Source of the DNA: Prostheceraeus crozeri
Lineage: Eukaryota; Platyhelminthes; Polycladida; Euryleptidae
Length of the DNA: 64,000 nucleotides
Reading direction: 5' to 3'
Assembly: GCA_907163375.1 (NCBI GenBank)
Contig: CAJQUW010011508.1
Location: 622,958-686,957 of the forward strand
The position numbers and the translations under genes were made by a program. A model generated the notes under the pieces. That model worked only from the letters and a program-made list of their open reading frames with translations. It made no database searches and was not told where the DNA came from. Shown here piece after piece: positions 21,856 through 64,000 of this stretch. Within the stretch, counting starts at the first letter, position 1. Each line of letters starts with the position of its first letter.

Positions 21856-22154
21856 AAGTGTGTGAGTGATCCGCTGGAGACCAGCTTGGTGGAATGTCGT
21901 CTGATCAATAATCGTAAACCTCGGATGAACAGGCGTCACGAGGCAGTCGCAACACGGCTCCATCTACTGTAGTGCTTCACTTTTATCATATTAGGCCTTG
22001 ATAAAGCGTCAGGACGGGAAACGTCGGCCACCTTGTGTCTTTATTTAAGTCATTATAATTTTCGGCCTAACAACAATCGGGAGAGTTTTGTGCCTACACA
22101 CTCGTAGTGTATATTTTTTGAATAATGGTCCTCCCGCCCAAAGCCATCAATTAT
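21856..22154 (+). repeat. Left pseudo-LTR of the Penelope-like element
   Basis: Direct repeat of 24747-25045 (offset 2891 bp). It begins with coding sequence for the last 35 or so codons of the endonuclease, runs through the 3' untranslated part and ends just after the ATG of the ORF at 22125. The left repeat therefore supplies the ORF start while the right repeat carries its end, as expected for a tandem-derived Penelope copy. Confidence 0.9.
21994..22029 (+). ncRNA. Hammerhead-like motif in left pseudo-LTR
   Basis: A GGCC pair encloses CTTGATAAAGC, a short pairing segment and GGGAAAC before GTC. Penelope-like elements are known to carry hammerhead ribozymes in their pseudo-LTRs, with core CUGANGA and GAAA. 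The first box here deviates from the CUGANGA consensus, so self-cleavage is uncertain. Confidence 0.4.
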
Positions 22155-27869: not shown

Positions 27870-30080
27870 ATGACCCGAACGTATAACCGCAAGACAACGA
27901 GAGCGGGCTTTACTGAAGAGACCCTTAGAGATGCGGCAGAGAGAGTCTTGAATGGAGAAAAGTCATTTCGGGTGGCACATGAGGTTGGAATTCCTCGTAC
28001 GACAATTAGGAGGAAAGTGGAACTTCTGCGTAACGATCCTGGTGCATGTGTTGCAACAAATTATAAAAGAGCACAGGTTTTTTACATACCAACAAGAAGA
28101 GCAGCTCTGTGAATACTTAGAACGTTGTTCGTCCATGTTCCACGGGTTAACGACGGTTAAAACAAGAGAGTTGGCTTATCAAACTGCATTGTTCAATGAA
28201 ATCAAATATCCACAGAAGTGGGACAGTGATAAGAAAGCTGGCTTTGAGTGGCTACTGGCTTTCATGCGGCGTCATCCTCGTCTCTCAATACGCAAACCGG
28301 AAGCAACATCAATTGCAAGAGCATCTGTGTTTAACAGAAGGAACATAGATGAATTCTTCGACAAGCTGGAAGAAGTTATCCAGGCATCCCAATTCCGAGG
28401 CAAACAGATCTACAATCTTGACGAAAGCGGATTGACAACTGTCCAGAAGATGCCAGATTTCATTGGAAAGCGGGGAGTGAAGCAGGTGGGGCAGATAGCG
28501 AGCCGAGAGCGTGGAGAACTGATGACCGTCTGCTGCATAGTTTCGGCCATTGGAGAGACTGTTCCTCCTGTCTTAGTCTTTCCGCGAAAGATGTTTCACG
28601 ATCCAATGATGGCCAATGCTGCGGAGGGAAGCATCGGTTTGGTAACTGGAAATGGCTGGATGAATTCCGACACTTTCGTGAAAGTTCTGAAGCACTTCAA
28701 AGCTCATGCTAGGCCGACCCCGGACTATCCCGTGTTGCTGATAATGGACAACCACGAGAGCCATCTGTCACTTCCTGCCCTCTCATTTTCAAAGGAAAGC
28801 AACATTCACATCCTTACTTTGGTGCCGTATACTAGTCACAGGACGCAGCCGCTTGACAAGAGTGTGTTTGGCCCCATGAAGAAATTCTACAACGCAGCAG
28901 CAACTTCGTGGATGATGCAGAATCCTGGACGTTGTATCACGATATACAATGTATCACAATTTGTACGAGAGGCTGTACTGAAAGGTTCAACTCCTGCAAA
29001 CATTCAATCAGGATTCAAGGCAACTGGAATTTGGCCATTCAACAGACACATATTCGATGAAGAGGATTTCGCACCGGCATCGGTTTTTAATGCTCCACAA
29101 ACCTCCGATTCCTCCGAGCCTCCTCTGATGTCATCAGCTGCTCCACATACCTCCAGTTCCTGCGAGCCTCCTCTGACGTCATCTGCTGCTCCACAGACCT
29201 CCAGTTCATCCGAGCCTCCTCTGACGTCATCTGTTAACGCTCCACAAACCTCCAGTTCCTCCGAGCCTCCTTTGATGTCATCAGCTGCTCCACATACCTC
29301 CAGTTCCTGCGAGCCTCCTCTGACGTCATCTGCTGCTCCACAGACCTCCAGTTCATCCGAGCCTCCTCTGACGTCATCTGTTAACGCTCCACAGACCTCC
29401 AGTTCCTCCGAGCCTCCTTTGATGTCATCAGCTGCTCTACAGACCTCCACATCCTCTGATGACTTTGTATCACCATCGGTTTTCAAAGGATATCCGAAGG
29501 TAAGCGCTTGAACATTAGGACAGTAGGTAGAATTGTAAAATATAAATTACCTGGGTAAGCAAAATATTATTACGTGTCGTGCTGTAGTTTTGCACATTAA
29601 TTGAAAAATAGATTTAAACATGCAAAATATGACTCATATAATTCGTGTACTAACTCATGTTGCTGAAGCTAAGCTAAGAATGTTTCTCTTGATATCTTTT
29701 CAGGCGATTCCAGGGACTCCGAAGACCAGACAACGCAGATATCGACCCAAAGCCATGATTGCGACATCAGATTGTGAGATGAAGCGAATTCAAGAAAGGA
29801 AGTCTCCATTGAGGGGTGTCAAGAGATCTATCAGCACAAGCAAGGAAGCGGAGAACCAACGTCTCAAGGAATTGCATCTCAATCCTCAATCAAGACCAAA
29901 GAAAGAGCCGGGCCGAAGAAAACAGCAAAGGCGAGAAGAACTGAGAGCTGTCCCATTTGTAGCAATTCTTATGAGTCCTCTGGACTTGACTGGTTCTTGT
30001 GCAGCTCATGCGAGAAATGGGTGTGTGAGGAGTGCTTTGAGAATTGTTTGTGTCAGGTGTGTTTGTTTAGTTCTTTGTGA
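27870..30080 (+). pseudogene. pogo/Tigger-like transposase, frameshifted, with C-terminal zinc finger
   Basis: A transposase for TA-targeted cut-and-paste. It starts at ATG 27870 with a psq-type helix-turn-helix (residues about 10-55). A frameshift falls in the T6 run at 28078-28083, and the second frame continues to 29511. It covers the CENPB-like second DNA-binding region and a DDE_1 core: YNLDES (first Asp), LIMDNHESH (second Asp) and TQPLDKSVFGP (third Asp). A Ser/Pro-rich tandem-repeat linker follows at about 29085-29460. A GTAAGC donor after CCGAAG (about 29500) and a CAG acceptor at about 29703 suggest an intron. The last exon begins with a basic stretch and, after another frame change, encodes a Cys-rich finger (CPIC, CSSC, CEEC, CLCQVC) ending at the TGA 30078-30080. 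The frame changes make it non-functional as read, unless they are assembly errors. Confidence 0.88.
29085..29460 (+). repeat. Coding minisatellite in the pogo-type transposase
   Basis: A 16-codon unit (APQTSSSSEPPL-type) repeats about eight times. It shows higher-order order: three units plus one extra codon form a 147 bp block, seen from the GTTAACGCTCC phrases at 29233 and 29380. It lies between the DDE core and the splice donor, so length change would alter only a flexible linker. Confidence 0.85.
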
Positions 30081-49200: not shown

Positions 49201-49264
49201 AGATTACATTTTGCAAACGTTTATCATTGGCTGTATTCGTTATATCAATTGCTAGTAATGGGCA
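46201..49264. other. No gene recognised
   Basis: Only short unremarkable frames on either strand. Nothing here supports a gene. Confidence 0.55.
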
Positions 49265-49735
49265 AAAGACCGTTCCAGGACACCATAAAATTCAAAAAAA
49301 TAGTATCTTTAAAAACGACATAAATTCATGAATTTAGACCCTTTTTCAGGTTTTTAAGACCTAAATACATGAATTTAGTCCATTCAAAAAGTACCATTTT
49401 TTCAAAAAAATGGTATCTTTAAAAACGACATAAATTCATGAATTTGAACCCTTTTTCAGGTTTTTAAGACCTAAATTCATAAATTTGGGCGTTTTTAAAA
49501 ATACCCAATTTTTCAAAATTTTCAAAATCTCAAATTTGAGAATTACAATTTTCACCCTTAAAATCATGACCGTTCCAGGACACCGAAAAAAACAGAAAAG
49601 TTAAGAATCTCAAATTTGTGATTATGACATTTTTCATTGCTTAAATCATGACCATTCCAGGACACCGAAAATCATAAAAGTTGAGAATTTCAAATTCATG
49701 AATTTTATCCATCTTTCAGGTTTTTAAAATATATC
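49265..49735. repeat. Complex tandem-repeat tract near the left edge of the viral element
   Basis: Two copies of a 110 bp unit (TATCTTTAAAAACGACATAA phrases at about 49303 and 49413) are followed by a second unit of about 80 bp. The phrase GACCGTTCCAGGACACC or a one-base variant appears at about 49268, 49568 and 49648. Many small ATTCATGAAT palindromes occur. It may be a host satellite or part of a terminal repeat of the adjacent element; the partner end is outside the window. Confidence 0.6.
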
Positions 49736-50055
49736 ATGTGTCTAATAATATTTCTTTAAGAATATAACACAATCTCTCACAATGCTTGTTATTGTTACTG
49801 CTTTGCACTCAGATGATCACTCAATTGTAGAGAACATCTGCTTCTCGCATTTATGAATAAAAGGCATTTCAGTGTAAAGAGCTGTGACCTCCAACTCAAA
49901 CATTTGAAAGGAAACAATGTATGAAAGAACAAACAGCTGCTACACCCACTTAGTCATTTGTAAGACGTGGAATATATTGCAGCATGTAGGAAGTAAGACT
50001 TCATTTACAATTCCATTAATCATAACTAGTGACTGTTTTCTTTCTTCATTGCAAA

Positions 50056-50791: not shown

Positions 50792-51213
50792 AGTAGTAAC
50801 GCATTTTGGATTATTTTGAAATGTAATTAAATTTTCTTTTGTTCTCCAGCTAATGGTAGTAGACTGCTATTGTATAGATCTATATTTCAGTAGGTAACAT
50901 AATCTTTGGTATTTAAGAATGATTCATGGAACTTAGTAGTAACACATTTTGGATTATTTTGAAATGTAATTCTATTTTCTTTTGTTCTCCAGTCTAATGG
51001 TAGTAGACTGACATTGTACAATTGTATGATAAGATTGATTGTTGTATTATTATATTTGATATTTGAGAATGATTCATGGAACTTAGTAGTAACACATTTT
51101 GGATTATTTTGAAATGTAATTAAATTTTCTTTTGTTCTCCAGTCTAATGGTAGTAGACTGACATAGTACAATTGTATGATAAGATTGATTGTTGTATTAT
51201 TATATTTGATGCA
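50792..51213 (-). repeat. Three tandem copies of a 143-150 bp unit
   Basis: Units begin at the AGTAGTAAC phrases at 50792, 50935 and 51085, each containing TCTTTTGTTCTCCAG. On the minus strand the last two units are open and encode a repeated peptide with PLDWRTKEN and KCVTTKFHESF. The coding appearance suggests amplification of a gene end, but no family is recognised. Confidence 0.75.
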
Positions 51214-51291
51214 AAATACACTGCCGTTGTTTTCATTTTTCTGTACAAGAAGTAGACATTATTACAGTTATTGGAATTTATTTCATTTAAA

Positions 51292-51522
51292 ATGAATGAT
51301 GAAAATCCGACAGTTATACTGAGTAATATAGGTGATATATTACCTCAGGTTAATAACATGACTGAGTTCTTAGAAATATACGGCAAACAAACAACTGCGT
51401 ATTTCTATTTAAATCGAAATTCAGAAGATTGTATTCAAAATATTTATTCAAAATATTTCTTTAAAAATGGAAGAAACAAAAATGGAAGAAACCGCAAGAA
51501 TATATCCTTCGTTATCATATGA
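51292..51522 (+). CDS. Small unknown protein overlapping the membrane-protein gene
   Basis: A 76-residue frame starting at ATG 51292 after TTTAAA. Its 3' end overlaps the start of the next gene (51467) in a different frame. No family recognised. It could be a truncated upstream gene of the viral element. Confidence 0.35.
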   Translation: MNDENPTVILSNIGDILPQVNNMTEFLEIYGKQTTAYFYLNRNSEDCIQNIYSKYFFKNGRNKNGRNRKNISFVII

Positions 51523-52147
51523 ACGTAGTTCTACTTTAATGGACATTGAAAAAATGAATAAAGAAAAACACAAAGATAGAGTACGTTATATGAAAGATAA
51601 GGAATCTCAATTATTATTAAGATTAGAGCATTATAAAAAATTAAGAAAGAGATGGACTAAAGTTAAGAATGTAACACAAGGAATTGGCATATTCTTAACA
51701 ATAAGTTTAGGCGCTCTCACTATTGTTATATCTTCTGGTGTTTTAGTAATTCCAGTAGTTGCTACAGCTTTAACAGGTACGGGTGTTTTTGCAACTTCAC
51801 TTGTTACAATGTTAGATAAATCTTTAATAACTAAGAAACGAAAATCATTAAAAACTAAGCATTTACATATTAAAGAAGTCTATGATAAATTGCATTACTA
51901 CTTTCAAAGAGTATGTGATGATAATGTTATTACGTTAGATGAGATTGAAAAATTTGATCAAATAGCTAATAAAGCTAATAAAACGCCATTTCATTTAAAG
52001 TCCGAAAAAGTTGATGATAAGAATAAACAGGATGGCAAAATTTCTAGTGATGGCAAAATTTCTAATGAAGAAAATGACAAAATTTTTTTAGAAGAGCTAA
52101 AAACTTTAAGCGAAAATTTAAGCAAAACTTTATTAAACAAAACTTAA
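51467..52147 (+). CDS. Two-helix membrane protein of the viral element
   Basis: 226 residues from an ATG in the element's usual A-tract context. A charged N-terminal helical region is followed by a long hydrophobic stretch at residues about 72-116, enough for two membrane passes. A cytosolic-type helical domain and a Lys-rich tail follow. The tail holds a short tandem duplication (DGKIS twice). Architecture matches small hypothetical membrane proteins often seen in metazoan Polinton-like elements; function unknown, possibly virion membrane or assembly. The frame is intact. Confidence 0.65.
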   Translation: MEETKMEETARIYPSLSYERSSTLMDIEKMNKEKHKDRVRYMKDKESQLLLRLEHYKKLRKRWTKVKNVTQGIGIFLTISLGALTIVISSGVLVIPVVATALTGTGVFATSLVTMLDKSLITKKRKSLKTKHLHIKEVYDKLHYYFQRVCDDNVITLDEIEKFDQIANKANKTPFHLKSEKVDDKNKQDGKISSDGKISNEENDKIFLEELKTLSENLSKTLLNKT

Positions 52148-52268
52148 AACGAGAAACCTTTAAACGAAAAGATGTCAGACAACAAAGCAATAAAAAAATA
52201 ATTTGTTCAGTAAAATGTTTTTGTTGTATTCCAATGTTACCACAAAATTCAAATATTATATTTTAAAA

Positions 52269-53093
52269 ATGGATAAAATTAAAGCTGATAATTTTAAAAG
52301 AATAAAACAATTAGAAGAGTTAATAAAACAAAGAAATATTATGAAAGAAAATCATCTTCAACATAGAATGATAAAAGCTGGTATTCAATCTGATATGTTT
52401 GAAAAAATGCAGCAAACCGAGCAAGTAAAAACTGATTTTGAAAAAACTATGAAACCATTTAAAACTCTTGAAAAAGAAAGTACAAATAATGATAAACAAA
52501 TTGATATAACAGATCCAGAGCACAGAACTATATTAGATAACTATGGATTACTAGAATCAAACATTAATAAGAAATTACCAAAATCTATGCAATTTGAACA
52601 TTCTATTTCATTTATAGATGGAAAAACAATACCTAGATTTTATCTCGGACAAAAAGAAATATTTCCACAACCTTTTCGAGGCTTAATTTTTTCACCAGAT
52701 AAATCTCCTTTTAATTTAGATAGAAATTTTGTTGATCTTTTAAGAGGAGCAGATTTAAATAATTATGCTGTAGAAGATCTCATAAAATATAAAGCTATGT
52801 TAGATAGAGTTGGTGCAGTAAAATCTCTTAGACGTTATAAACAATTAGAAAATTTGTTATCAACGGGAGTTAAAGTAGGAAAAGGTTTATCTGAAAAACA
52901 GAAAACAGAAACAACTGTATTTTTACCAGATGATCCACAAGAATTACTAAATAGATTAAATATTTTAATATCTGCAATAAAAGAAGGACATAATTCTAGT
53001 TTCAATGAAATTCATGCTATATTGAAAAGACTGCTGGAAAAGCAGATTCTAAATGAAGAGGATTATAAAAGTATAACGAACCGAATGTTCTAG
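52269..53093 (+). CDS. Unknown virion-type protein of the viral element
   Basis: 274 residues from ATG 52269, chosen over the in-frame ATG at 52215 because it has the TTTTAAAAATG context of the other genes. The N-terminal 70 residues are a charged coiled coil. The middle part has aromatic and Pro-rich phrases (PRFYLGQKEIFPQPFRGLIF) and a helical Leu-rich C-terminus. No family with known function is recognised. The stop codon at 53091-53093 lies inside a double-hairpin element, which provides the last five codons. Confidence 0.65.
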   Translation: MDKIKADNFKRIKQLEELIKQRNIMKENHLQHRMIKAGIQSDMFEKMQQTEQVKTDFEKTMKPFKTLEKESTNNDKQIDITDPEHRTILDNYGLLESNINKKLPKSMQFEHSISFIDGKTIPRFYLGQKEIFPQPFRGLIFSPDKSPFNLDRNFVDLLRGADLNNYAVEDLIKYKAMLDRVGAVKSLRRYKQLENLLSTGVKVGKGLSEKQKTETTVFLPDDPQELLNRLNILISAIKEGHNSSFNEIHAILKRLLEKQILNEEDYKSITNRMF

Positions 53094-53104
53094 GGCTTCG
53101 CCCG
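53079..53104 (-). repeat. Double-hairpin element a, supplies a stop codon
   Basis: Reads on the minus strand as GGGCGAAGCCC, TA, then a one-base variant of GAACCTTCGGTTC. It covers the last codons and the TAG stop of the 52269-53093 gene, and is in a different reading frame and orientation from the copies in the polymerase. Confidence 0.8.
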
Positions 53105-53171
53105 TAGCTGAAATATGTTGTTGTTTTTAATTTTTTTATAAAAAATGTTTATTTAAAATTTTAACTAAAAA

Positions 53172-53960
53172 ATGTGTTCAGCAGATTTAGACAAAATTAA
53201 TAATCATTTAGAAAATCTAACAGAGATTTTGGGTTCATCAAAATTTAGTACGACGTTAAAAATTATAACAACTACTTCATCACACACTTGTAATTTAGAA
53301 CCCATTCTACATTTAGAACAAAATAAAAATTATCAAATTGCATTGACTAGTTTCTCTACATTTAACACTATTCAAGATGTTATAAAAGATGTGAATGATC
53401 AATTTAGATATTCCACTGATAAAGGCAAAACATGGAAAATACAAACTTTTCTTCCTGGTTCTTAAGAAGTTGAATCAATATCAAATGAAATTAAGAGACA
53501 TTTAGGTATACCATTTAAAGATAAGAAACAATTACATTTTGCAGTTGAACCGGCAGTTAATAAATTTTCTCTTACTTTAGACGAAAATCATCAAGTTGAT
53601 TTTAATCATGATAGATCATTGTCAAAGCTATTAGGATTTAATAAACAAACCTATAGTCAAGGTTATCATTTAGGTGAGAATATTCCAAAAATAACTGAAA
53701 TAAATTCAATTGTTGTACATTGTGACATTATTGAAGGAGGATATATAAATGGTAAATTGTCAAATTTAATATTCAGTTTTCCAGCTTTTACTGTACCCAT
53801 TGGTTATAGATTAAATGTAATTCCACAAACATTAATATATTTTCCTATTACAAGAAAAACTATTAACAACATTGGCATTAGAATCACTGATGAGAAAGGA
53901 CAAGAAATAAATTTTGGAGGTGAAGAGATTATGATAGATCTTTTGGTTCGAGAGGTATAA
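53172..53960 (+). pseudogene. Probable minor structural protein, one in-frame stop
   Basis: A single frame runs from ATG 53172 to the TAA at 53958-53960, interrupted once by TAA at 53463-53465 after PGS. Both halves are in the same frame and read as one beta-rich protein of about 262 codons. The C-terminal part has an IPPGY-like segment (VPIGYRLNV) and a final NIGIRITDEKG phrase followed by EEI. I recognise this ending from uncharacterised proteins of metazoan Polinton-like elements, probably fibre or minor capsid proteins, but the function is not established. The stop may be inactivating, an assembly error or read through. Confidence 0.6.
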
Positions 53961-54046
53961 ACTCCCACGCGAAGCTAGAGAAGTTTAATTTTCTTCTTCT
54001 TCTTTAAAAATAAAAATAAAATAAAAATAAATTTTTTTATTAAAAA

Positions 54047-54814
54047 ATGAGTGAAGTACCCCCATTAAATAAAAAGAAACTTAAATTTAATCATCATCCA
54101 AATTTATCTAATAAAGTTTTGTCAGTTATTTGCGGAAGATCAGGTTGTGGAAAAACGTATCTATTATTTAAAATTTTAACGACTCCAAATTTTTTGGATT
54201 ATAACAATCTTATAATTTATACAACAACGGCAGAACAACCCGTCTATCAATTTTTAAAATATGGATTTGAAAATAATCTTAAAAAAACAGCAATTGCTTC
54301 ATTATTCAAAGAATATGAAAAATCTGAAGATGAAGAAGAAATAAGTTCGTGGTGTGAAGAAGCAGCAAAAAATAGTCAGTTAGTAGAATCCAATAAAAAT
54401 AAGCATATAAAGATACAATTAATAGATGATAGTGGTAATATGCAAGATCCTAGTAAACTAGATAAAACAATGAAACATTGTGTAATTTTTGATGATTGTG
54501 TTAATGACAGAAATCAGTCAGTTCAGAGAAATTATTTCACAAGAGGTAGACATAATAACTGTAGTGTATTTTATTTAACACAAAGTATGTATTCATTAGA
54601 TGGAAGTGTTATTAGAAAGAATGCAAATATATTTATACTATATGAAATAAATGCAAGAAACTTAAGTGATTTGTTAAGAGATTTATGTGTAAGAAATAAA
54701 GATGAATTTAAACAATCGTGTAACAATGCTTGGTCAAAAGATTATGGCTTCATTACAATTAATATTGATAAAAAAATTCATGATAGAGTTATCGAACAAT
54801 TGTTCTCTGACTAG
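54047..54814 (+). CDS. A32/FtsK-HerA-type DNA packaging ATPase
   Basis: 255 residues, intact. The protein would drive viral DNA into preformed capsids. Walker A is GRSGCGKT (residues 30-37). Walker B is CVIFDD (145-150). An LTQS sensor-like segment lies near 177-180, and FTRGRHN near 164-170 may provide arginine fingers. Length and motif order fit the packaging ATPases of Polintons, virophages and adintoviruses. The ATG follows TTATTAAAAA. The stop TAG (54812-54814) is followed at once by a double-hairpin element and a long AT hairpin that separate it from the convergent polymerase gene. Confidence 0.9.
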   Translation: MSEVPPLNKKKLKFNHHPNLSNKVLSVICGRSGCGKTYLLFKILTTPNFLDYNNLIIYTTTAEQPVYQFLKYGFENNLKKTAIASLFKEYEKSEDEEEISSWCEEAAKNSQLVESNKNKHIKIQLIDDSGNMQDPSKLDKTMKHCVIFDDCVNDRNQSVQRNYFTRGRHNNCSVFYLTQSMYSLDGSVIRKNANIFILYEINARNLSDLLRDLCVRNKDEFKQSCNNAWSKDYGFITINIDKKIHDRVIEQLFSD

Positions 54815-54826
54815 GCTTCTCCTCGA

Positions 54827-54851
54827 GGGGCTTCGCCCCGACTGAAAGTCG
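54827..54851. repeat. Double-hairpin element b, intergenic
   Basis: GGGGCTTCGCCCC overlaps by one base with CGACTGAAAGTCG. Both stems are perfect with 3-nt loops. The stem sequences differ from element a but the layout is the same. It lies 12 bp after the ATPase stop. Confidence 0.8.
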
Positions 54852-54876
54852 ATAGAACATTTGTTTGCCGAGTGAT

Positions 54877-54917
54877 AAAAATATACAAATATAGTGTTAT
54901 AATATTTGTATATTTTT
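54877..54917. terminator. AT-rich perfect hairpin between convergent genes
   Basis: A perfect 16-bp stem (54877-54892 with 54902-54917) around a 9-nt loop, with A and T tracts outside. It lies between the 3' ends of the ATPase (plus) and polymerase (minus) genes and could end or process transcripts from both sides. Confidence 0.55.
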
Positions 54918-56103
54918 ATTTTATGTATATATCAAATTTGACTATCTTAGAAATTAGAAAATTAAAAAGGTGAAGTAGTTATTCCATCAGTTAAAATTTT
55001 TCTTTTATCATCAAATGGATCTAATGCTAATTTATGTTCTTCTTTTAAATACATGTTATGTTTTTTTGAATTAAGTCTATAATTACATGCTGTTTTTATT
55101 TCATTATTAAATAATACATTTTTATAATCTTGAAATGTTATTTGATTAGCCACTGATGCCTTTGAAATTCCTTTTAATGATTTATGTGTTTTAATATTAT
55201 TAGTTGTATCATAACAATAACATTTAGATTTTAAAAATATAGCTTCTGTTATGAAATCTTCATTTCCTTCTAATTCATCTTTTACTTTACATAAATCAGA
55301 AGGATGAATGATATCTTTTATTCTATTAATTTCTTCATCAAGTGAAGAATTATACGGTATTGTTAATTCTAAGAAAACAGAATCGGTATCTGTAAAGTGT
55401 AATTTATAGTTTTTGCCATAAGCAGGTGCTAAATAATCATATATAAATCTATACATAAATAGTTTAGCTAATTCTAATATAGTGAATCCTATAAAATTAA
55501 ACTTATCATGTTTTACGCTGATTCGACGTAAATGTACAGCACATAGTTCATCACTAAATCTAGTAGTTCTTTTATATGTAGGTTTCCTTGTTAAATTTTG
55601 AAACCTATCTTTATCATAAACTATTTCAATATTTTGTCTATTACGCACATTTTCTAAAGTCTTACCATAAAATGCATTATTCATTAATTTGAAGAACACG
55701 TTTCCAAAATCATCTTTATTTCTTTTAGCTATTTTACGTTTTTCAATATTGAACTCTATATAATTTTTTAACCACCTAGATTTTTGATAAAATAGTTTTC
55801 GATGTATTTTGGTGAGAATCATTCCATGTTCTAAATTCCAATCTAGCATTCTTCCTTCAACAACATACTTTCCTTTATTGCTTTGTGTTAACATAAGTTT
55901 TTTTGTTGGTCTGTATTTCTTAGGAATTAAAGATTTTTGATAATCTGAAAAATCTTCTATATTGGGAATTTTGTTTTCGGGACAGAAAGGAAAATATTTT
56001 GTTTTATCTTTTATTTCATCAGGATATACTAAATCAACTTCATATATATAACCATGATTATATGATTATAATTTCCATCATATGTTTTTTGATAATCAAG
56101 AAC

Positions 56104-56134
56104 GGGCGGAGCCCTAGTAGACATCTCTGATGTC
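56104..56134. repeat. Double-hairpin element c, in polymerase
   Basis: GGGCGGAGCCC (56104-56114) and GACATCTCTGATGTC (56120-56134), stems of 4 and 6 bp with 3-nt loops. On the minus strand it encodes TSEMSTRAPPV, a relative of the RTEGSRA peptide, just downstream of motif A. Confidence 0.8.
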
Positions 56135-56795
56135 GCACGAATATTACACCATGACATTTCACCTGTTGGTAATTCTTATATCATGCAAGAAGAATATAAG
56201 CTATTAAAATCATAATATAACAAATAGTTTTCTCTCATGAATTCATCAATTGCATTTTCACGTTCTACTCCTTCTCGTTTCGTTCGAAAAATTTCTAATA
56301 TTTTTTCTTTTTCTTCTGGAGATAAAGGTTTCATTATTCCATATTCTTGTGGATTTACTTTCTTATTATAACATTTAACATATCTATTACCTAAAACTGA
56401 TGAAACACCACCTCTAATTCCAGATTCAAAAAATAATAATTTATCATATGTATTTTCTTTATAATGTTTAAGTTTAACATTTGTATGTTTTAATTCTGCT
56501 AACCATGTTAAACCTGGTGTAGAATAAGAATAACATGGATCTATTCCGTAATATTCTAAACACATATCACGAAAGTTTTCAAAAAGATCAGCTAGTATTA
56601 ATACATCTATCTGAAGATATTTCATTGTATAATCATACATTGTTTTACAATTTAACTCTCTCCAATTCTTTTCAGCTTCTGCATAGTCTTCTTCAGATAA
56701 TTATGATTGTTTTAATGTTGATTTAAATTTATTTATTGGAGGAAGTTTCTGTTCTTCCATAATTTTATTCACAGAATTAAAATCTCCAGTTATAT

Positions 56796-56821
56796 CAGTC
56801 TTCGACTGTGAGCCGCAGGCT
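56796..56821. repeat. Double-hairpin element d, in polymerase
   Basis: CAGTCTTCGACTG (56796-56808) and AGCCGCAGGCT (56811-56821), perfect stems with 3-nt loops. The sequence is unrelated to the main type while the layout is conserved. It is read in frame between Exo II and Exo III. Confidence 0.75.
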
Positions 56822-57200
56822 ATATACTCATACGGAAATATGCCTTTCAAAGGTTTTAAATTATATTTATTTAATATTTTACATTGTTCAGATTTCAAAG
56901 TTTTTCCCATAACATCTAATGAATAAGGAGTAAAAAATCTAAATGCATCTAAAATTCTAATACAACCTAATTGCATTGAAAAATATTCTTCTTCTGTTTT
57001 ACATAGTACATTTATTTGTTGTTGTTGTAATTTTTCAGATGAAAATAAATCTTTCATTACTAGATGGAAATCATATTTAGAACCATTACAGAAATATAGA
57101 GGAACAAAGTTATATTTAAATTTATTAGCATTAAGATTACAAGAATTATGTGCTGCACCTCTATATAATCCATTTAGATGATCATGATCTTTTACTTTGA

Positions 57201-57211
57201 CGGCAGAGCCG
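57201..57211. repeat. GC-rich single hairpin e, in polymerase
   Basis: CGGCAGAGCCG, a 4-bp stem with 3-nt loop, followed by a weak GC-rich second half. It encodes part of a Lys/Ser/Gly stretch just before the HDHLNG zinc segment and may be a decayed double-hairpin element. Confidence 0.5.
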
Positions 57212-57552
57212 CCGCTTCGCTTATCAAGATATCTACCTCTGCCATTTTTATAATTTTTTGTAAATTCTTTTCCACAGTAATAACATTTTGTTTCATTAAT
57301 AAAATTTAATTTTTCTTTTTCTGTTAATGGCATCATTGGAATATTTGTTTCAAGCAATTGTGAAAAACGTCCTTGTAATTCTTCTACTTTCTTTGTAAAC
57401 ATTTATGAACTATCTTCACCATAGTATTGATAATATTCTGATTTAAATAATTCAGGATAATTTGAATGAATGTACATTCCCCAACATAATGGTTTTTGTT
57501 CAAATAAATATTTTTCTTTACTTTGTTCAGCTGCACTTTTTTCATAATTATA

Positions 57553-57577
57553 AACCGAAGGTTCTAGGGCTTGGCCC
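57553..57577 (-). repeat. Double-hairpin element f, in polymerase
   Basis: Minus-strand GGGCCAAGCCC, TA, then GAACCTTCGGTTT (one pairing mismatch). It is almost the same as element j but lies in the opposite orientation and in another reading frame, encoding GQALEPSVYN. It sits in the linker after Exo I. Confidence 0.8.
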
Positions 57578-57609
57578 GTACCATTTTCAGAATTATAATT
57601 TTCAGAATC

Positions 57610-57635
57610 GGGCGAAGCCCTGGAACTTTCCGTTC
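57610..57635 (+). repeat. Double-hairpin element g, in polymerase
   Basis: GGGCGAAGCCC (57610-57620) followed by a shortened GAAC/GTTC stem (57623-57635). Read in frame on the minus strand as NRTESSRASP, directly after Exo I and only about 30 bp from element f. Confidence 0.8.
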
Positions 57636-59154
57636 GATTTTGTGTCATATTAACATTATATGCTTCGAAATCACAATAAATAGTAAAGGGTACTTTATTT
57701 TTCAAATAATGTCTATTATATATTAAATAATCATCTTTAGGAAAAGTATTTTCAACTGCTTCGTTTTGTTGACAATTCTCCAAATGTCTATTCATTTCTT
57801 CTTTAGTTCTAAAACTTGTCATACATTGAAGACAAGGAAAATTTGTATTATCTGAAGTTTTTGTAAATATAGAAACATCTTTACACAATATAAAATGACC
57901 CTGATAATATAAAATATTCGCTTGTGCTGGTTGTTTTGTTTGTTTTAATTTTTCAAATTTATCTTTATATATTTCATGTGTTTCATCAATTTGTCTTTGT
58001 AAATGTTTTTCAGACTGTTGATAATTTTGATTGAATATTTTCAGCTGTTGTTCATATTCATTATTATATTGTTCTTTATATTGTTGTTGACATTTTTTAA
58101 ACATTCATTTAATTCTTTATTTTCTTCATTATTTAATTCTTTATTGTCTTTATTTAATTCTTGAATCGTTTCTATCTTATTTTGATATTTATGGCCGTAT
58201 TCTTGTCCTAATATTTTTGTTTGTTGTTGATAATCTCTTTTACATTTTTGTAAAATTTCATTTAAATTTTGTAATTTTTGTTGATATTCTAAAGATAAAG
58301 ATAAATAATCGGAATCATAATCATAATTATAATTACGTCCTTTATAGTTATTATGATTAATCATTATTGGTGATAATGTTTTAACAATTTGAAATTTTTC
58401 AGTACATATTATATTTCCTTGATAAAAAAAATTATGATGCATGTAATTTCCTCTATCATTATATACTATTTCTGATTGACATAAATTTTTATTATTCAAA
58501 TAAAATTTTTTTGAATCTGAGTAAAGTGGAGTAATTTTACCAATAGAAACATAATTCACATTTAATTCAAAAACATTTACTTCTATTAAATTTTTATTCT
58601 TTTTATGAAACTTTATTAACCTATTATAATCATATGGAAATTTATGTAAGCCATCAGAGAGATCAAATTCCTTTATGTATTCTTCTTTATTATAATGACT
58701 TAGTCTCTCTTTGTGATATTCTGCAGGATGTAAATGTGCTATAATACTCCACAGAAAACAATAATCATCTTCATTTTTTATGTTGATTATTTGTGGTGAA
58801 CTGAAAGGTAAAGGAACATAACTACCCCCAGTATTATTTTTATATTTATCAATTACTATTTTCTTAGATAGTATTTTAACAAATCTCCAACCAGATTCAC
58901 GTAAATGAGCTTCAATTATACAATTTTCTAATTTAAGTATCATTTGTTCAAATATGGGTTGTATATCATTTACATTATGAATTTCTTGCGAATTTGTAAA
59001 ATGTCCTTGTATTATTTCTTCAGGAATTCCATCAGGTCCATTTTTTGGTATAAAGTACTTCTACATTCATATAACATTTGAAAGATTTCTTAAATATTTT
59101 GAAAAAGTTTTTTAATACATTATAAAAAGTTTCATCGGTTTCATTATGTTCAAC

Positions 59155-59185
59155 GGGCGAAGCCCTGGAAGACATCTTTGATGTC
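59155..59185 (+). repeat. Double-hairpin element h, in polymerase N-terminal region
   Basis: GGGCGAAGCCC (59155-59165) and GACATCTTTGATGTC (59171-59185), the second stem 6 bp. Read in frame as TSKMSSRASPV. The second stem matches that of element c, while the first is the common type. Confidence 0.85.
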
Positions 59186-59227
59186 CCGTGTACCGATTCA
59201 TTAAATAAATATTTTATATCTGTTACT

Positions 59228-59252
59228 GGCGAAGCCCTAGAACCTTCGGTTC
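59228..59252 (+). repeat. Double-hairpin element i, in polymerase N-terminal region
   Basis: GGCGAAGCC with GAACCTTCGGTTC, near-consensus. Read in frame on the minus strand as RTEGSRASPV. Confidence 0.85.
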
Positions 59253-59343
59253 GTTCCGCTTCATCGGTTTTTTTAGTTTCATCAAATTCATCTATTTCGT
59301 TAAATTCATCAGTATCGCTAAGTAAATATCTTCCATCTGGTAC

Positions 59344-59369
59344 GGGCCAAGCCCTAGAACCTTCGGTTT
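59344..59369 (+). repeat. Double-hairpin element j, in polymerase N-terminal region
   Basis: GGGCCAAGCCC with GAACCTTCGGTTT. Read in frame as QTEGSRAWPVP. Third element within 220 bp; elements h, i and j sit in an acidic low-complexity linker. Confidence 0.85.
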
Positions 59370-59794
59370 GTACATGTTCATCTTCACTATTAAAAACTTT
59401 TTTATATTCCGAATGTGAATAATCATCAAACATATTTTTAACTTTTATATCAGTAGGCAATGTTTCTAGATAGTTTTTATAACTATTTAATTTTAATATA
59501 TTTCCTTCATCAACTCGTTCTACATTTTGTAAATGCAATTTACTATTTAAATGAGATTGATAACTTCTTTTTGTTTGCAAATTTTTTTACATAAGTTACA
59601 ATAAAACTTGGTATTTTCCATTTTTTTTATTTTTTAAAGAAAAAAATTGTTTTAATTTTAGATATAAACATTCTAATATCAAGGTCCAGAGAGTTAATAT
59701 ATATTATTATATATTTCACGTTCTTTAGTTATTTTTTTTCTTTATCACATTAAGTTTTAGCATATAATGTTCTATAATATTAAGTTTTATCATA

Positions 59795-61182
59795 TTAAGT
59801 TTTATCATATAACGTTTTATCAAAAGATAATTTAAATTTATTTTCACTAACTATTGATTCTTCATCATCATCATAAATTGATTCTTCAACATCATAAATT
59901 GATTCTTCATCATCATCATAAATTACACTTTTTGGGATTGGATACCATTCTCTTATTGGAATATCTAACTCTAAATTACATCTTTTATCTGATAATAATA
60001 TAATAGAGAAAAATATTGGTCTTTGTTCTGTTTTGGAAAATTTAGTAACACCACCATAATCTGAATCACTTTTAGTTTTTATTAAAGATGATAAAATTTT
60101 AAATTGATTAGATGTAAATCCTAATTTAAATTTTGTAGACCCGACACATAGTTGTCGAACAGTATCTTCAACTATACCATCATTATTATTTTCAATTGTA
60201 AGAAAATGAAATTTAGATAAATTTTGATTATATGTAGTATTAATATCATGTACATCAGTATGAGATATAAATTTTTCTTCACTTAAATTTTTATAATTAC
60301 TAATATTTTTTATAATCTTTCTTACCATTTACACCATTTTCAGATGTTTCAGAATCATCATCTATATTATCATCATCTATATTATTATCATCATTATTAT
60401 CATAAGATTCTTTAACATCGGGCAAAGCCCTAGAACCTTCGGTTCGTTTATTATGATTATGATTATGGACATTGTTAATAGTATAAGGTGTTGTCCACAT
60501 ATAAATTTTTCTTGTTGAGCTAAACCATTTATATAAGATTTTAACAAATTAATATTTAAATTGGAATACAATCCTATATATGTATCATCATCATATCTTT
60601 GCGGCATTTCTAATGTTTCTTGTTTATAAATTGTATCTCTATAATATACTTGACATAATAATTCTTCGTTATGCTTTTTACTCTCGATATGAATATTATA
60701 TTGGTTTTGTTCATCAACAAATAATCTAATTTTTTCTTTTGAAAAGGATTTTAATTTTTTAACTAATTCTTTAATATTAATATAATTGATAATTTTTTTT
60801 CTATCCAATCAGTATTACTAATTGGTAATACTGCTCTAATAAAACCATAAACATTATTATGACCTATTATAACCATATTTTCTTTATTTAATTCTACATA
60901 TGCAACATCATTATATTTGCTTACAATCTCCATAAATTTAATAAATGGATCACCTGGAAATAAACAATAGTTAGTTTCTATAGAAGGTAAACCTTTTGTT
61001 TGTTCCCTAAATATTTCGGCTTGTAATTGAAATAAAATATTAACATCTATACATGGATTTGTAATAGTATTATTATTATTATTATTATCAAAACATTTAT
61101 TTCCAAATCCCGTTGATCTCGTCGAATAAGAAGAACAGGATGATGCGGACGAATATAATTTTTTTAAATTTGCTTCATCCAT
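59795..61182 (-). pseudogene. Unknown companion gene of the polymerase, frameshifted
   Basis: Read from ATG 61182 in an A-tract context, ending near 59795 after an acidic repeat tail (DDDEESIYD). Frame changes fall at the T8 run 60793-60800, near the T5 run 60506-60510, and near 60310-60330; joined, it would be about 450 codons. No family is recognised with confidence. Alternating beta-type segments (VAYVELNKENMVIIG, KIRLFVDEQNQYNIHI, FFSIILLSD) are weakly reminiscent of a sliding clamp, which would suit a gene beside a polymerase, but this is speculation. Element k is embedded in frame. As read it is broken. Confidence 0.5.
60420..60445 (+). repeat. Double-hairpin element k, in the companion gene
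   Basis: GGGCAAAGCCC with GAACCTTCGGTTC. Read in frame on the minus strand as KRTEGSRALPD, the same phase as elements i and j in the polymerase, although the protein is unrelated. Confidence 0.85.
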
Positions 61183-61186
61183 TTTT

Positions 61187-61300
61187 TTATTTTTATTAGA
61201 AAAAAATTTGTTTTTTTATTTTTATTAGAAAAAAATTTATTATTTTATTTTTATTAGAAAAAATTTTATTTTTTTATTTTTATTAGAAAAAATTTCATTT
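61187..61300. promoter_or_regulatory. Divergent promoter region with four 29 bp repeats
   Basis: The whole 133 bp between the divergent starts at 61182 (minus) and 61316 (plus) is A/T tract sequence. ATTAGAAAA recurs at 61195, 61224, 61253 and 61282, an exact 29 bp period. It is the only place where two element genes diverge, so it probably holds both promoters. Confidence 0.55.
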
Positions 61301-61315
61301 TTTTATTGTTAAAAA

Positions 61316-62230
61316 ATGATGTTACCAAATGTTGGTGGAGGTGCATATATCCCGAATAATCGTGAATTAGAAATAGAGATAGAAAATTATATCATGAAAA
61401 CTGGAGATGTTTTATCTGGTCCATTGCATCTTTCTATTCTTCCGCAACAAAATACAGAGTTAACAAATAAACAATATGTTGATACACAAGTCAATGACTC
61501 AAAAGAAAAATATATAAACGATGTTTTGGTTCCACTGATGAATGAATTAAAGTTGCTTAAACTTAATGACAAATCATTAAACGAAAAATTATTAAAACTT
61601 GATAAAAAGGATAGAGAGCTAGAAGCAGATATAGCAAAACTTTTTAAAAAGATTTCTGAACAATCAAAAATTTTAATATTACTTTCTTTAAATTTAAAAT
61701 CTGCTGTAATTAAAAATAAACATCAGATAAAAATGTTAAAAGAACAATTAGAAGATGAAATAGAAAATCTACCTGAAAGAATTAAAAAAAATTTAAAGCA
61801 GTTACAAACTACATTCCAAAAAAGTGTTGATGAATTGAGTTCTAAAATTACTCAACAAATGAAAAAGATGAATAGAATAATAAATGAAGTAAACTCACTT
61901 AATCAAAAAGTTGATAAAATGAAAACTCTTAAAATCAATTTAGAAAATGAATTAAAGAAAAATTTACAAGAAAACTCTAAAGAAAATAAAGAACAGTTAG
62001 ATGCTGTTAAAAGACAATTAGATGTTCTTAAAATTAAGTTAAATGCTCTTAAAACGGCATTGAAGATTAATCAGCAGAAAATGCAAGTTAATAGAAAAGA
62101 AATTAAAGTACATCACACGCTGCTTGACGCAATAGATAAAGTGCAACAATCAATTAATAAAGTTATCTGGAAGTTGTTGTACATTTACAAACGTAAATCT
62201 TGGTCGGACCAAAGGTCCTCAGGTTTCTAA
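61316..62230 (+). CDS. Fibre-like coiled-coil protein with phage tail-fibre motif
   Basis: 304 residues, intact. After a short Gly/Pro N-terminus, residues about 28-60 read MKTGDVLSGPLHL, then TELTNKQYVDTQV. This matches the G-D-x-(L/M)-(S/T)-G-x-L...KxYVD pattern repeated in bacteriophage tail fibres. The remaining 240 residues are an almost unbroken Lys/Glu/Leu coiled coil, as expected for a trimeric shaft. No globular C-terminal head is present; the frame ends in a double-hairpin element that gives the last codons and the stop, so a head may have been lost. Probable role: host attachment spike. Function is inferred from the motif and the capsid-gene neighbours. Confidence 0.65.
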   Translation: MMLPNVGGGAYIPNNRELEIEIENYIMKTGDVLSGPLHLSILPQQNTELTNKQYVDTQVNDSKEKYINDVLVPLMNELKLLKLNDKSLNEKLLKLDKKDRELEADIAKLFKKISEQSKILILLSLNLKSAVIKNKHQIKMLKEQLEDEIENLPERIKKNLKQLQTTFQKSVDELSSKITQQMKKMNRIINEVNSLNQKVDKMKTLKINLENELKKNLQENSKENKEQLDAVKRQLDVLKIKLNALKTALKINQQKMQVNRKEIKVHHTLLDAIDKVQQSINKVIWKLLYIYKRKSWSDQRSSGF

Positions 62231-62233
62231 CCT
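62206..62233 (+). repeat. Double-hairpin element l, supplies the fibre stop codon
   Basis: GGACCAAAGGTCC (62206-62218) and AGGTTTCTAACCT (62221-62233), perfect 5-bp stems with 3-nt loops. The loop of the second hairpin carries the TAA that ends the fibre frame. Confidence 0.8.
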
Positions 62234-62249
62234 ATAGAACCTTGTCCAG

Positions 62250-62261
62250 AGGCTTTAGCCT
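62250..62261 (+). repeat. GC-rich single hairpin m
   Basis: AGGCTTTAGCCT, a 5-bp stem with 2-nt loop, between two complete double-hairpin elements in the gap after the fibre gene. Confidence 0.6.
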
Positions 62262-62264
62262 ATC

Positions 62265-62291
62265 GGACCAAAGATCCTGAGGTTATTACCT
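62265..62291 (+). repeat. Double-hairpin element n, intergenic
   Basis: GGACCAAAGATCC (one mismatch) and AGGTTATTACCT, a diverged tandem sister of element l at a 59 bp spacing. Confidence 0.7.
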
Positions 62292-62365
62292 TATCATAAA
62301 CGTAAATCTTAGCGCAAATATTAACGTAAATATTTTTTCCCAAGAGTCAAATTTAATCCTAAAAA

Positions 62366-62917
62366 ATGCCTATAATTTATAAACACAATCTTAAACATTT
62401 TGCTTCAAATAAAAAAATTGCTCATGAACCACGTATGAATCCTGTTCATCATTATGATAATAGAGAAACAGTTCACACGGAAGGAGCTGGCATCTTCTCT
62501 GGTATTGGAAGTATCGTTAACTTAATTAAAAATAATAAAGATTTGATTACATCTGCTGCAAAAGGAGCAGCTGCTATTGGTAGTACAGCTAGTGCAATAT
62601 CAAATGCTGTCAAGTCTCAAAACGAATTAAAACAACTAGAAGCTATTCGTAGACTTAGGAATGATTCTGAAGAACTAAAAAATTTAAAAAAACTTTCAGA
62701 GGAAACAAAAAATAAAATTGCTAACATAGCTGTTGGGGAAACCTTGAGGAGCGGAGCTCCGTCTGATAGTAAACATAAGAAGAAATCTGGCGTAGCCATA
62801 GAACGTTCAATTGAACCTACGGTTCGTTCAATTGAAGAAATAAGAGGAAATGGCGTGAGTAGCAACCTTCGGTCCAACCAGCAAAGCTGTAGCGGAGCTG
62901 GTCTAGCAAAATTCTAA
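62366..62917 (+). CDS. Small virion-type protein, pVI/pX-like candidate
   Basis: 183 residues, intact, ATG in CCTAAAAAATGCC. A basic N-terminus leads into a Gly/Ala-rich amphipathic and hydrophobic segment at residues about 39-83 (EGAGIFSGIGSIVNLI, then AAKGAAAIGSTASAI). A charged helix and a Lys/Ser/Arg tail follow. A short protein with this profile directly before the capsid gene is reminiscent of adenovirus pVI/pX-type minor proteins found in adintoviruses and Polintons, but there is no decisive motif. The C-terminal third is largely encoded by inserted hairpin elements (62748-62899), so the ancestral protein may have been shorter. Confidence 0.5.
   Translation: MPIIYKHNLKHFASNKKIAHEPRMNPVHHYDNRETVHTEGAGIFSGIGSIVNLIKNNKDLITSAAKGAAAIGSTASAISNAVKSQNELKQLEAIRRLRNDSEELKNLKKLSEETKNKIANIAVGETLRSGAPSDSKHKKKSGVAIERSIEPTVRSIEEIRGNGVSSNLRSNQQSCSGAGLAKF
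62748..62760 (+). repeat. GC-rich hairpin o in the minor virion gene
   Basis: GGAGCGGAGCTCC, a perfect 5-bp stem with 3-nt loop, read in frame as part of RSGAPSD. Confidence 0.65.
62788..62825 (+). repeat. Double-hairpin element p with a nested palindrome
   Basis: TGGCGTAGCCA (62788-62798) and an outer GAAC...GGTTC stem that has been opened by the palindrome GTTCAATTGAAC (62805-62816). GAACCTACGGTTC at 62813-62825 still pairs. It looks like an insertion into, or expansion of, the second hairpin. Read in frame as GVAIERSIEPTVRS. Confidence 0.75.
62879..62899 (+). repeat. Double-hairpin element r near the 3' end of the minor virion gene
   Basis: CAGCAAAGCTG (62879-62889) and AGCGGAGCT (62891-62899), one base apart. 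A weaker ACCTTCGGT stem precedes at 62865-62873. Together they encode most of the last 20 codons. Confidence 0.7.
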
Positions 62918-62928
62918 AATTATGTTTT

Positions 62929-63002
62929 TTAGTAAAATTTTTTTTAAGCAAAATTTTCTTAGCAAAATTTTTTTAGTAAAATTATTTTAGCAGAATTTTT
63001 TC
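62929..63002. promoter_or_regulatory. AT-rich short repeats upstream of the capsid gene
   Basis: Four imperfect copies of a TTTAG(C/T)(A)AAATT unit of 16-20 bp lie between the minor virion gene and the capsid ATG at 63045. It resembles the A/T-tract repeats in the 61.2 kb divergent promoter and may be the capsid-gene promoter. Confidence 0.4.
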
Positions 63003-63044
63003 TGTGTGTGAGAAAAACAAAAAGTCAAATTATTTTTTATAAAA

Positions 63045-64000
63045 ATGTCTTCGCTTATCGAAAATAAATTTAGATTAGACGATCCTCCGTTCGTCAGTTG
63101 CAATCAAAAAAAGAATGACTATATAAGAATTGCTATGAATCCCGGATCTTCCAGTAGAGTAAATACTGGAGGTGATTTAATTTTTGAAGTTGATAATCAG
63201 CAGAGTTATATATATCTACCTGATTCATTTTTACATTGTGAATATTCTTTGTATAGTGATGCCAATTTTACAACACCATTACCAGAAACCGATAATATTG
63301 CACTAGAGAATAATTTCTTTCCAAGATTATTTACACAAATGCGTTTAGATGTTGCAACTCAAAATATAGAAACAATAAGTGATTCTCCAGGTGTAATTGA
63401 TACAATGCTTAGATTTATAACAATTGGTGAAAATAATAAAAAGTATGAAATCGAAGGTTGGTTTCCTGATACTAATGATGGTATAATTGTTGATGATTTA
63501 ACTCACGCTGGAACAGATGCAGCAGGAATTGTGAAAGATGTAGAAAATATTGCAAAACATTTAAATAAAACAAACAATAGTGCATATAAAGAAAGACGTG
63601 AATTTAACAAGAAAAGTAAACAGACAGTTAATTGGTCATTGTCTCCATTATTCGGATATTTAGATTATGACAAAATATCATATCAATTAAAATTTAAATT
63701 AATAATTCATCGTACAGCAAATAATGAATTAATCTTTTTTGGTAAGACTGGAAAAAAAGCATATTTAAAAATTGATAGACTTGAATGGTGGATTAAGCAT
63801 ATTACTCCTAGTTTAGAGATTGAAACAGCTATTGCAAAAAGATTAAATACTAACAAACCAATTCCAGTAAATTTTCTAAAGCGTACTGCTAGTTCAGTAA
63901 CTTTTTCCGAACAAAGATTTAACTGGCATTTTACTAGAACTGCGAATACTCCAAGATATTTATTACTAACATTTCAAAGAAATAATTCTCCAAGTTTTGA
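63045..64000 (+). CDS. Probable double jelly-roll major capsid protein, 3' end outside window
   Basis: Open from ATG 63045 (ATAAAAATG context) through the window edge, 318 codons, no lesion. The sequence is beta-rich and acidic, with few charged helices. A conserved-looking block at residues about 240-262 (KIDRLEWW, then ITPSLEIE) followed by RYLLLTFQRN matches, from memory, the uncharacterised capsid-like proteins accompanying polymerase and ATPase genes in metazoan Polinton-like elements. The position next to a pVI-like gene and a fibre gene, together with the size, favours a major capsid protein, but the fold assignment is inference. Confidence 0.65.
   Translation, partial: MSSLIENKFRLDDPPFVSCNQKKNDYIRIAMNPGSSSRVNTGGDLIFEVDNQQSYIYLPDSFLHCEYSLYSDANFTTPLPETDNIALENNFFPRLFTQMRLDVATQNIETISDSPGVIDTMLRFITIGENNKKYEIEGWFPDTNDGIIVDDLTHAGTDAAGIVKDVENIAKHLNKTNNSAYKERREFNKKSKQTVNWSLSPLFGYLDYDKISYQLKFKLIIHRTANNELIFFGKTGKKAYLKIDRLEWWIKHITPSLEIETAIAKRLNTNKPIPVNFLKRTASSVTFSEQRFNWHFTRTANTPRYLLLTFQRNNSPSF

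Follow-up and report, generated by a model that had tools for sequence, protein, structure and literature searches.

GC-rich double-hairpin units, probably mobile, in an abundant Polinton of the flatworm Prostheceraeus crozeri

Results

A Polinton with GC-rich hairpins in its genes

The stretch of 64,000 nucleotides analysed here (the window) comes from the polyclad flatworm Prostheceraeus crozeri (assembly GCA_907163375.1, contig CAJQUW010011508.1, positions 622,958 to 686,957 of the forward strand), and its right part holds a Polinton, a virus-like transposon, that is dotted with short GC-rich hairpin units. The element has the genes by which Polintons/Mavericks are recognized, namely a double-jelly-roll (DJR) capsid protein gene (63045 onward; PF21738, above the Pfam cut-off in a Pfam profile search), an A32-like packaging ATPase gene (54047-54814; PF04665, likewise above the cut-off) and a type-B polymerase (PolB) gene on the minus strand, whose match to DNA_pol_B_2 (19 bits) is below the cut-off of 25.8; its right end falls outside the window. 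We also tentatively label the gene at 53172-53960 as penton-like and, by eye, the capsid-type gene at 62366-62917 as pX-like. The window copy is decayed, its polymerase being divided among several frames, and both the penton-like gene and the polymerase gene (54962-59619) are disrupted by stop codons and frame changes; in 13 listed copies of the Polinton, the polymerase frame is open for at least 1,500 aa without an internal stop. An earlier note, made from the letters alone, had described a family of GC-rich double hairpins confined to this element and taken the first 51 kb as host DNA. Judging from other copies, this boundary has to be moved, as element-related DNA appears to start at about 49.25 kb.

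Hairpin enrichment and structure

GC-rich hairpins were present at all the positions that the earlier note had listed. Under a strict rule (stem of at least 4 bp with at least 3 G+C, loop of 3 nt), the 12.8-kb element (51,201-64,000) contained 21 hairpins versus 1.1±1.0 in 200 dinucleotide shuffles, and the 50 kb of host DNA (1-50,000) contained 26 versus 20.7±4.7 in 30 shuffles. Strict doubles, that is, two hairpins within 5 nt, numbered four in the element (56104, 56796, 59155 and 60420) versus 0.00 in shuffled sequence, and none in the host versus 0.03; when the loops were widened to 3-5 nt, the counts were four versus 0.01 and none versus 0.37, respectively. A relaxed rule (stems of at least 3, loops of 3-5) gave 14 doubles in the element versus 1.05 in shuffles (maximum 4), one of which (54450-54481) is AT-rich and probably a chance match, and 43 in the host versus 33.1 (maximum 46), a mild excess. 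The listed units at 53079, 57553, 57610, 59228 and 59344 pass the relaxed rule only, because one stem is shortened or broken in each. The element has 21 GC islands (20 nt, at least 60% GC), and 15 of them overlap catalogued units. These data bear out the earlier note in that the family is real, stands out as GC islands, leaves little sign in host DNA and differs in density from both host and shuffled sequence.

When folded as DNA, each of eight strands, which represent six units (two read on both strands), formed the double hairpin; the z-scores of single units were modest (-1.3 to -3.1). The loops follow a rule: C-GNA-G, read on either strand, fits 12 of the 21 element hairpins and none of the 26 host hairpins (Fisher p = 6e-6, a value limited by the fact that hairpins of one family are not independent), and the wider form C-RNA-G fits 18 of 21 versus 2 of 26. 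DNA mini-hairpins that combine a GNA loop with two or more G-C pairs are reported to be exceptionally stable and nuclease-resistant (PMC4686876), which suggests that the folded form is DNA, not RNA. Such hairpins would fit a single-strand replication intermediate. The orientation with the purine loop first was also tried as a signature and dropped, with no separation between element (7/10) and host (7/12). An Rfam search gave no match.

Unit families

The commonest unit, U1 (CGGGCGAAGCCCTAGAACCTTCGGTTCG, 28 nt), consists of two hairpins with 3-nt loops joined by the linker TAG or TGG, and six units in the window (53079, 57553, 57610, 59228, 59344 and 60420) are near-copies of it, with a mean column identity of 79%. 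U2 (56104 and 59155) has the same left hairpin as U1 and the right hairpin GACATC-NNN-GATGTC, while the cassettes at about 62.2 kb (27-31 nt) keep the double-hairpin layout with different stems. The two ends of a unit have only CG..CG in common. Across the Polinton loci, with the two host loci L074 and L080 excluded, 12 of 48 stem/loop types account for 221 of 291 hairpin matches. That stems differ while pairing is kept, as the earlier note had claimed, is true between families, in which double changes relate GGACC/GGTCC, GAACC/GGTTC and GGAGC/GCTCC, and GGGC/GCCC, TGGC/GCCA, AGGC/GCCT and CAGC/GCTG are further paired variants, but not among the six near-copies of a single 28-nt sequence. Its proposal that structure rather than sequence is selected or copied holds only in part and finds no support in that wording. 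Substitutions within a site often break the pairing, as in the stem-breaking GAACATTCGGTTC, which 32 of 38 copies have at 53079, and in a different broken form in L084, indicating that sequence gets copied and that structure is apparently unguarded at the resident site. We infer that stem diversity with kept pairing agrees better with a requirement for structure during copying than with one at the resident site.

The same substitutions bear on the view that the hairpins are selected functional signals of the Polinton, serving as transcript ends or in packaging, replication or translation control. Such signals would agree with the limited set of stems and the stable loops. They would also agree with the fact that, by eye, each of the five plus-strand genes in the interval 52.2-62.9 kb has hairpins at its 3' end, although the gene at 51467-52147 has none there. 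However, broken stems persist in many copies, other copies are without units at given sites, and six of the eight U1/U2 units in the window lie inside PolB, of which those at 57553 and 57610 are both kept in all three copies drawn from the 13 whose polymerase frame is open for at least 1,500 aa. We therefore regard selected signals as a very unlikely account of the hairpins.

Empty and filled sites between copies

Related copies of the element proved to have empty sites for units at 49538, 56104, 57553, 59155, 59344 and 62206, the check that the earlier note had proposed. The cleanest case lies outside genes, in the terminal repeat: the window sequence at 49538 (ACAATTTTC) is empty, and 18 empty repeats compare with seven filled ones (six loci) that differ by exactly the 28-nt unit and a duplicated AT. 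Five of the seven units are exact, one has one change (L078) and one is rearranged (L082); a further match, in a piggyBac-like frame of the window, was discarded. Within genes, the 30-nt insert at 59344 was missing from all three other copies read, 56104 is either filled (39 nt) or empty, and 59155 holds U2, U1 or neither (Table 1). The two copies empty at 57553 had been chosen for a match 30 nt shorter than that of the window (669 versus 699). An alignment-based, zero-length target duplication at 57553 was rejected: when the unit is taken as 28 nt long, TA stands on either side of it and one substitution lies close by. We also discarded L018, which seemed to be empty at 56104, and long stretches with mismatches in L004, L005 and L068, because these matches fall elsewhere in the element or follow loose anchors.

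Two sites are more variable. At 62206, 6 of 30 copies have the bare spacer, and the 24 filled ones show 23 distinct sequences in about 15 layouts (by eye), some differing from one another by substitutions alone; on a tree of the flanks, the empty and filled states need four changes, at least two of which are forced by starred branches, with bootstrap values not fully settled. At 53079, the protein P0096 reads through an empty junction and is 97% identical over 82% of the product of the neighbouring gene. Among 38 copies, this site holds U1 in 18, tandem U1+U2 in 15 and U2 in five, and a quick tree on which 19 of 33 inner branches are weak requires nine changes of state, at least three of them forced by starred branches per label. 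Units here both accrete in tandem and swap right-hand halves. The loci were best matches to the window or were picked for holding a hairpin, and the frequencies at these sites are therefore not those of all copies. Exact 2-nt flanking repeats (AT or TA) occur at 4 of 10 U1 sites, two of the ten having been read by eye, and the left dinucleotide is A/T at all ten; the repeats thus do not establish a transposase of the classical kind, which makes a fixed duplication.

Could the hairpins be local mutational products, made and repaired by replication slippage or template switching in AT-rich DNA, rather than mobile units? Template switching is reported to generate perfect hairpins and to fix them (PMC8794818). 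Tandem repeats have grown in this way at 53961 and in the tail at 62800, and the hairpins at 54827, 56796 and 57205 are non-homologous. In contrast, U1 or near-copies occupy eight sites in different genes and the terminal repeat, and the exact 28+2-nt insertion entered an unrelated target. Because an identical unit stands at unlinked sites and local creation cannot copy a distant sequence, this explanation is refuted for U1, and for the hairpins as a whole we consider it unlikely.

A further possibility is that old units were inherited with the element, lost by deletion, and spread between sites and copies by gene conversion only. Related copies do have alleles in common, terminal repeats of different variants are filled at one and the same position, recombination between identical halves can resolve tandem U1+U2 to U1 or U2, and the trees are unrooted, leaving gain unproven. 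Against this, no scars are seen in the target at empty sites, the insert of 28 nt plus AT has only the dinucleotide in common with its target, and 57553 is without long flanking repeats that would allow a precise deletion. Inheritance with loss and conversion alone therefore seems doubtful to us.

Inserts and the reading frame

At the DNA level, units inserted within genes measure 30 nt (57553, 59155 and 59344) or 39 nt (56104 and 59155), exchanging U1 for U2 at 57610 alters the length by 9 nt, and in gene 62366-62917 the repeat in the tail does so by 21 nt. Gene ends and intergenic regions have differences of 31, 38 and 68 nt together with irregular arrays, and the terminal repeat has 30 nt. 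Relatives of gene 62366-62917 are without successive hairpin-coded peptides in its C-terminal tail. In-frame insertion into unrelated genes, as known for Rickettsia palindromic elements, was thus found in PolB and in this tail, and its simplest reading is that insertion is indiscriminate and then filtered for frame. Translational bypassing elements were considered and rejected: the units between 57205 and 57610 leave the PolB frame unshifted, and a literature search on this point gave nothing.

Genome-wide abundance

In the 2.05-Gb assembly, GGGCTTCGCCC occurs 13,298 times (6,782 + 6,516 on the two strands) versus 36 times (17 + 19) for its reversed control. Twenty-one of the 23 loci inspected, all drawn from the first 100 places, contain this Polinton, including all of the first eight and 13 of 15 further places that were chosen as seemingly isolated and lay in the Polinton or its terminal repeats. 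The carrier itself is highly abundant, as three protein searches returned at least 141, 153 and 150 matches, mostly 86-100% identical. In the other two of the 23 loci (L074, position 616; L080, position 630), the GGGC-TTC/GAA-GCCC hairpin lies in host DNA, inside larger unrelated palindromes.

Table 1 Hairpin units and insertion sites in the window
Feature	Position	Strand	Other copies
Empty insertion site GAGAATTACAATTTTCACC in non-coding terminal repeat	49538..49560	+	28-nt U1 between AT and AT
U1, 31-nt insert at 3' end of gene 52269-53093, provides its TAG stop	53076..53106	-	
21-nt hairpin tandem repeat GTATAAACTCCCGTTCGAGAG, base state, end of gene 53172-53960	53958..53985	unassigned	0 to at least 4 extra units (loci L009-L038; 14 alleles listed)
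Hairpin pair GGGGC-TTC-GCCCC / CGACT-GAA-AGTCG, just past ATPase stop codon	54819..54853	unassigned	Also L001, L079
U2, 39-nt insert inside PolB gene	56102..56140	+	Empty in L001, L006
Hairpin pair CAGTC-TTC-GACTG / AGCC-GCA-GGCT in PolB	56796..56821	+	None found among Polinton loci compared
Hairpin pair CGGC-AGA-GCCG / GC-TTC-GC in Endonuclease VII-like stretch of PolB	57201..57220	+	Also L006
U1, 30-nt insert in PolB; TA/TA flanks with unit set at 28 nt	57552..57581	-	Empty in L089, L090
U1 in PolB, AT/AT flanks	57609..57636	+	U2 instead (+9 nt) in L006, L075, L093, L094; no empty site seen among copies compared
U2, 39-nt insert in N-terminal part of PolB	59154..59192	+	U1 (30 nt) in L002, L005; empty in L083
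U1 in PolB	59226..59253	+	Present in L083; no empty site seen
U1, 30-nt insert in PolB, TA duplication, GTAC on both sides	59343..59370	+	Empty in L002, L005, L083
U1 (near-copy) in gene upstream of PolB; no clear ortholog among copies read	60419..60446	+	
Array of double-hairpin cassettes, 27-31 nt each, between AAACGTAAATCTT repeats	62189..62310	+	
Single-hairpin insert GGAGC-GGA-GCTCC, codes GETLRSGAPS, in capsid-type gene (pX-like by eye)	62735..62764	+	In P0080, P0083, P0084; missing from others including P0081, P0085, P0087
U1-like unit TGGC-GTA-GCCA / GAACC-TAC-GGTTC with 21-nt tandem repeat	62787..62832	+	Compact 30-nt form implied by P0093 versus P0092; 21-nt repeat 0 in L073, 1 in window, 2 in L071/L072
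Nested hairpin inserts at C-terminus of gene 62366-62917	62853..62902	+	P0083, P0080 without successive layers

Other features of the window and further searches

The terminal repeat DNA at 49253-49763 directly adjoins 51450 in another copy (L008); in the window, about 1.7 kb of other sequence lies between the two and includes a repeat of about 150 nt in two full copies and one partial copy (by eye). Where the ATPase and polymerase genes converge, a 16-bp AT-rich palindrome (AAAAATATACAAATAT ... ATATTTGTATATTTTT, 54877-54917), seen by eye, lies between them and may mark transcript ends. Divergent genes are separated by a tandem repeat of 29 nt (61181-61296), which is likewise AT-rich. Contig C8081 (654220-660057) has gene 52269-53093 in three tandem copies spaced 2,508 bases apart, and copies L069 and L070 are +36-nt variants. 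In the host DNA, the long frames at 7553-9088, 22125-24863 and 27952-29511 resemble, by eye, piggyBac, Penelope-like (reverse transcriptase and GIY-YIG) and pogo/jerky-type elements, respectively. An NCBIfam search gave weak, chance-level matches only. Among IMG/VR and GTDB contigs, neither the ATPase, used singly or as an alignment, nor the alignment of gene 62366-62917 led to a confirmed relative, and no exact match to the unit pattern was found.

Discussion

Our results indicate that this Polinton carries discrete units that are optional at fixed sites, with one clean difference of 28+2 nt, tandem accretion and half-unit exchange. We consider it probable that these are selfish mobile DNA units of micro-scale, similar to the GC clusters of yeast mitochondria, which live on one very abundant Polinton and are copied during its replication. 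Polintons replicate with a protein-primed, strand-displacing polymerase, and the units may be copied at the single-strand DNA stage of this process. The hairpins, many of them with the stable C-GNA-G loop, could stall the polymerase or attract a structure-specific nuclease, for which the Endonuclease VII-like stretch in PolB is perhaps a candidate, and the units would then enter other places at A/T dinucleotides. An insertion would survive if it left the frame intact or fell at a gene end and would otherwise be lost, after which short homology among units could drive tandem growth and half-unit exchange.

Several results weigh against mobility of this kind. No mobilizing enzyme was identified; the Endonuclease VII-like stretch, on the minus strand, scores 17.8 bits versus a Pfam cut-off of 23.6, and a search for a solved relative of it gave none. 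Gain is not distinguished from loss at any site, as the trees are unrooted, and six of the ten U1 sites are without exact flanking repeats. Deletion between the GTAC repeats could account for the empty state at 59344, the empty sequence at 57553 fits only with one nearby substitution, and some size changes (53961 and 62800) are plain tandem-repeat slippage. To these are added the modest folding scores, the dependence among hairpins behind the loop rule, and the failure of loop orientation to separate element from host. We would put forward only tentatively the more specific idea of a 28-nt transposable unit without a protein, which would rank with the smallest known, be recognized by its single-strand shape, copy itself with a 2-nt target duplication through the replication enzymes of the Polinton, and, as a parasite of a virus-like transposon, add translated peptides to viral genes.

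To our knowledge, GC-rich hairpins that move have long been a puzzle in mitochondria and in a few bacteria, with no agreement on the machinery that mobilizes them. A nuclear Polinton with more than 100 near-identical copies and more than 13,000 copies of one hairpin offers a system with exact empty sites and datable copies, in which the protein-primed PolB is a candidate machinery. Moreover, the units represent a route by which virus-like elements may add new peptides to the products of their capsid and polymerase genes, and such hairpin repeats may mislead annotation and assembly. In a narrow literature search, whose yield on adintoviruses and giant viruses was scant, no report of such units in Polintons came up.

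Among known systems, the GC clusters of yeast mitochondria (GC42 and relatives) are closest in behaviour. They are described as short GC-rich palindromes in AT-rich DNA, flanked by AG or ACT repeats, which vary in presence between strains, occur in stand-alone and merged forms at one site, and merge and shuffle; one lies inside the var (rps3) gene, and an 18-nt precursor is described for the 42-nt GC42 (PMC4478555). The Polinton units likewise are short GC-rich palindromes in AT-rich DNA and show presence and absence, merging and shuffling, here among copies within a single genome rather than among individuals. GC clusters, however, are mitochondrial and have other sequences (by eye, the units are unlike the GC42 printed in PMC4478555), whereas the units reside in copies of a nuclear, virus-like animal transposon on many contigs, including its coding genes. 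The likeness to Rickettsia palindromic elements and to mitochondrial double-hairpin elements that the earlier note had drawn holds as a likeness. The former are palindromes that occur as in-frame insertions within unrelated genes (PMC10969869). They measure about 150 bp with a conserved coding peptide and reside in a bacterial chromosome, in contrast to the units, which are 28-39 nt long and accrete in tandem.

Double-hairpin elements of Allomyces have the two-hairpin layout. These and their counterparts in other mitochondria are named as mobile, optional hairpin elements in PMC7218506, which also names an ultra-short, 11-bp mitochondrial element of Podospora, so that the size of the Polinton units is no record. 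The double-hairpin elements are mitochondrial, whereas the units belong to a nuclear transposon. REPINs are a paired form of REP sequences, and REP/REPIN are tied to the RAYT transposase. Bacterial REP/REPIN are palindromic repeats of 20-40 bp in high copy number (PMC3733652). They are extragenic and tagged at one end, whereas the Polinton units also occur inside genes. The Submariner elements are larger and have classical terminal inverted repeats. These miniature inverted-repeat transposable elements (MITEs) were described in the large DNA virus Pandoravirus, where some lie in genes (PMC5799277). The Polinton units, by contrast, have only CG..CG at their ends and neither the terminal inverted repeats nor the fixed-length target duplication of MITEs, although no search for a partner transposon was made. 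The Polinton units differ from these systems in their carrier, their position in coding genes and their scale.

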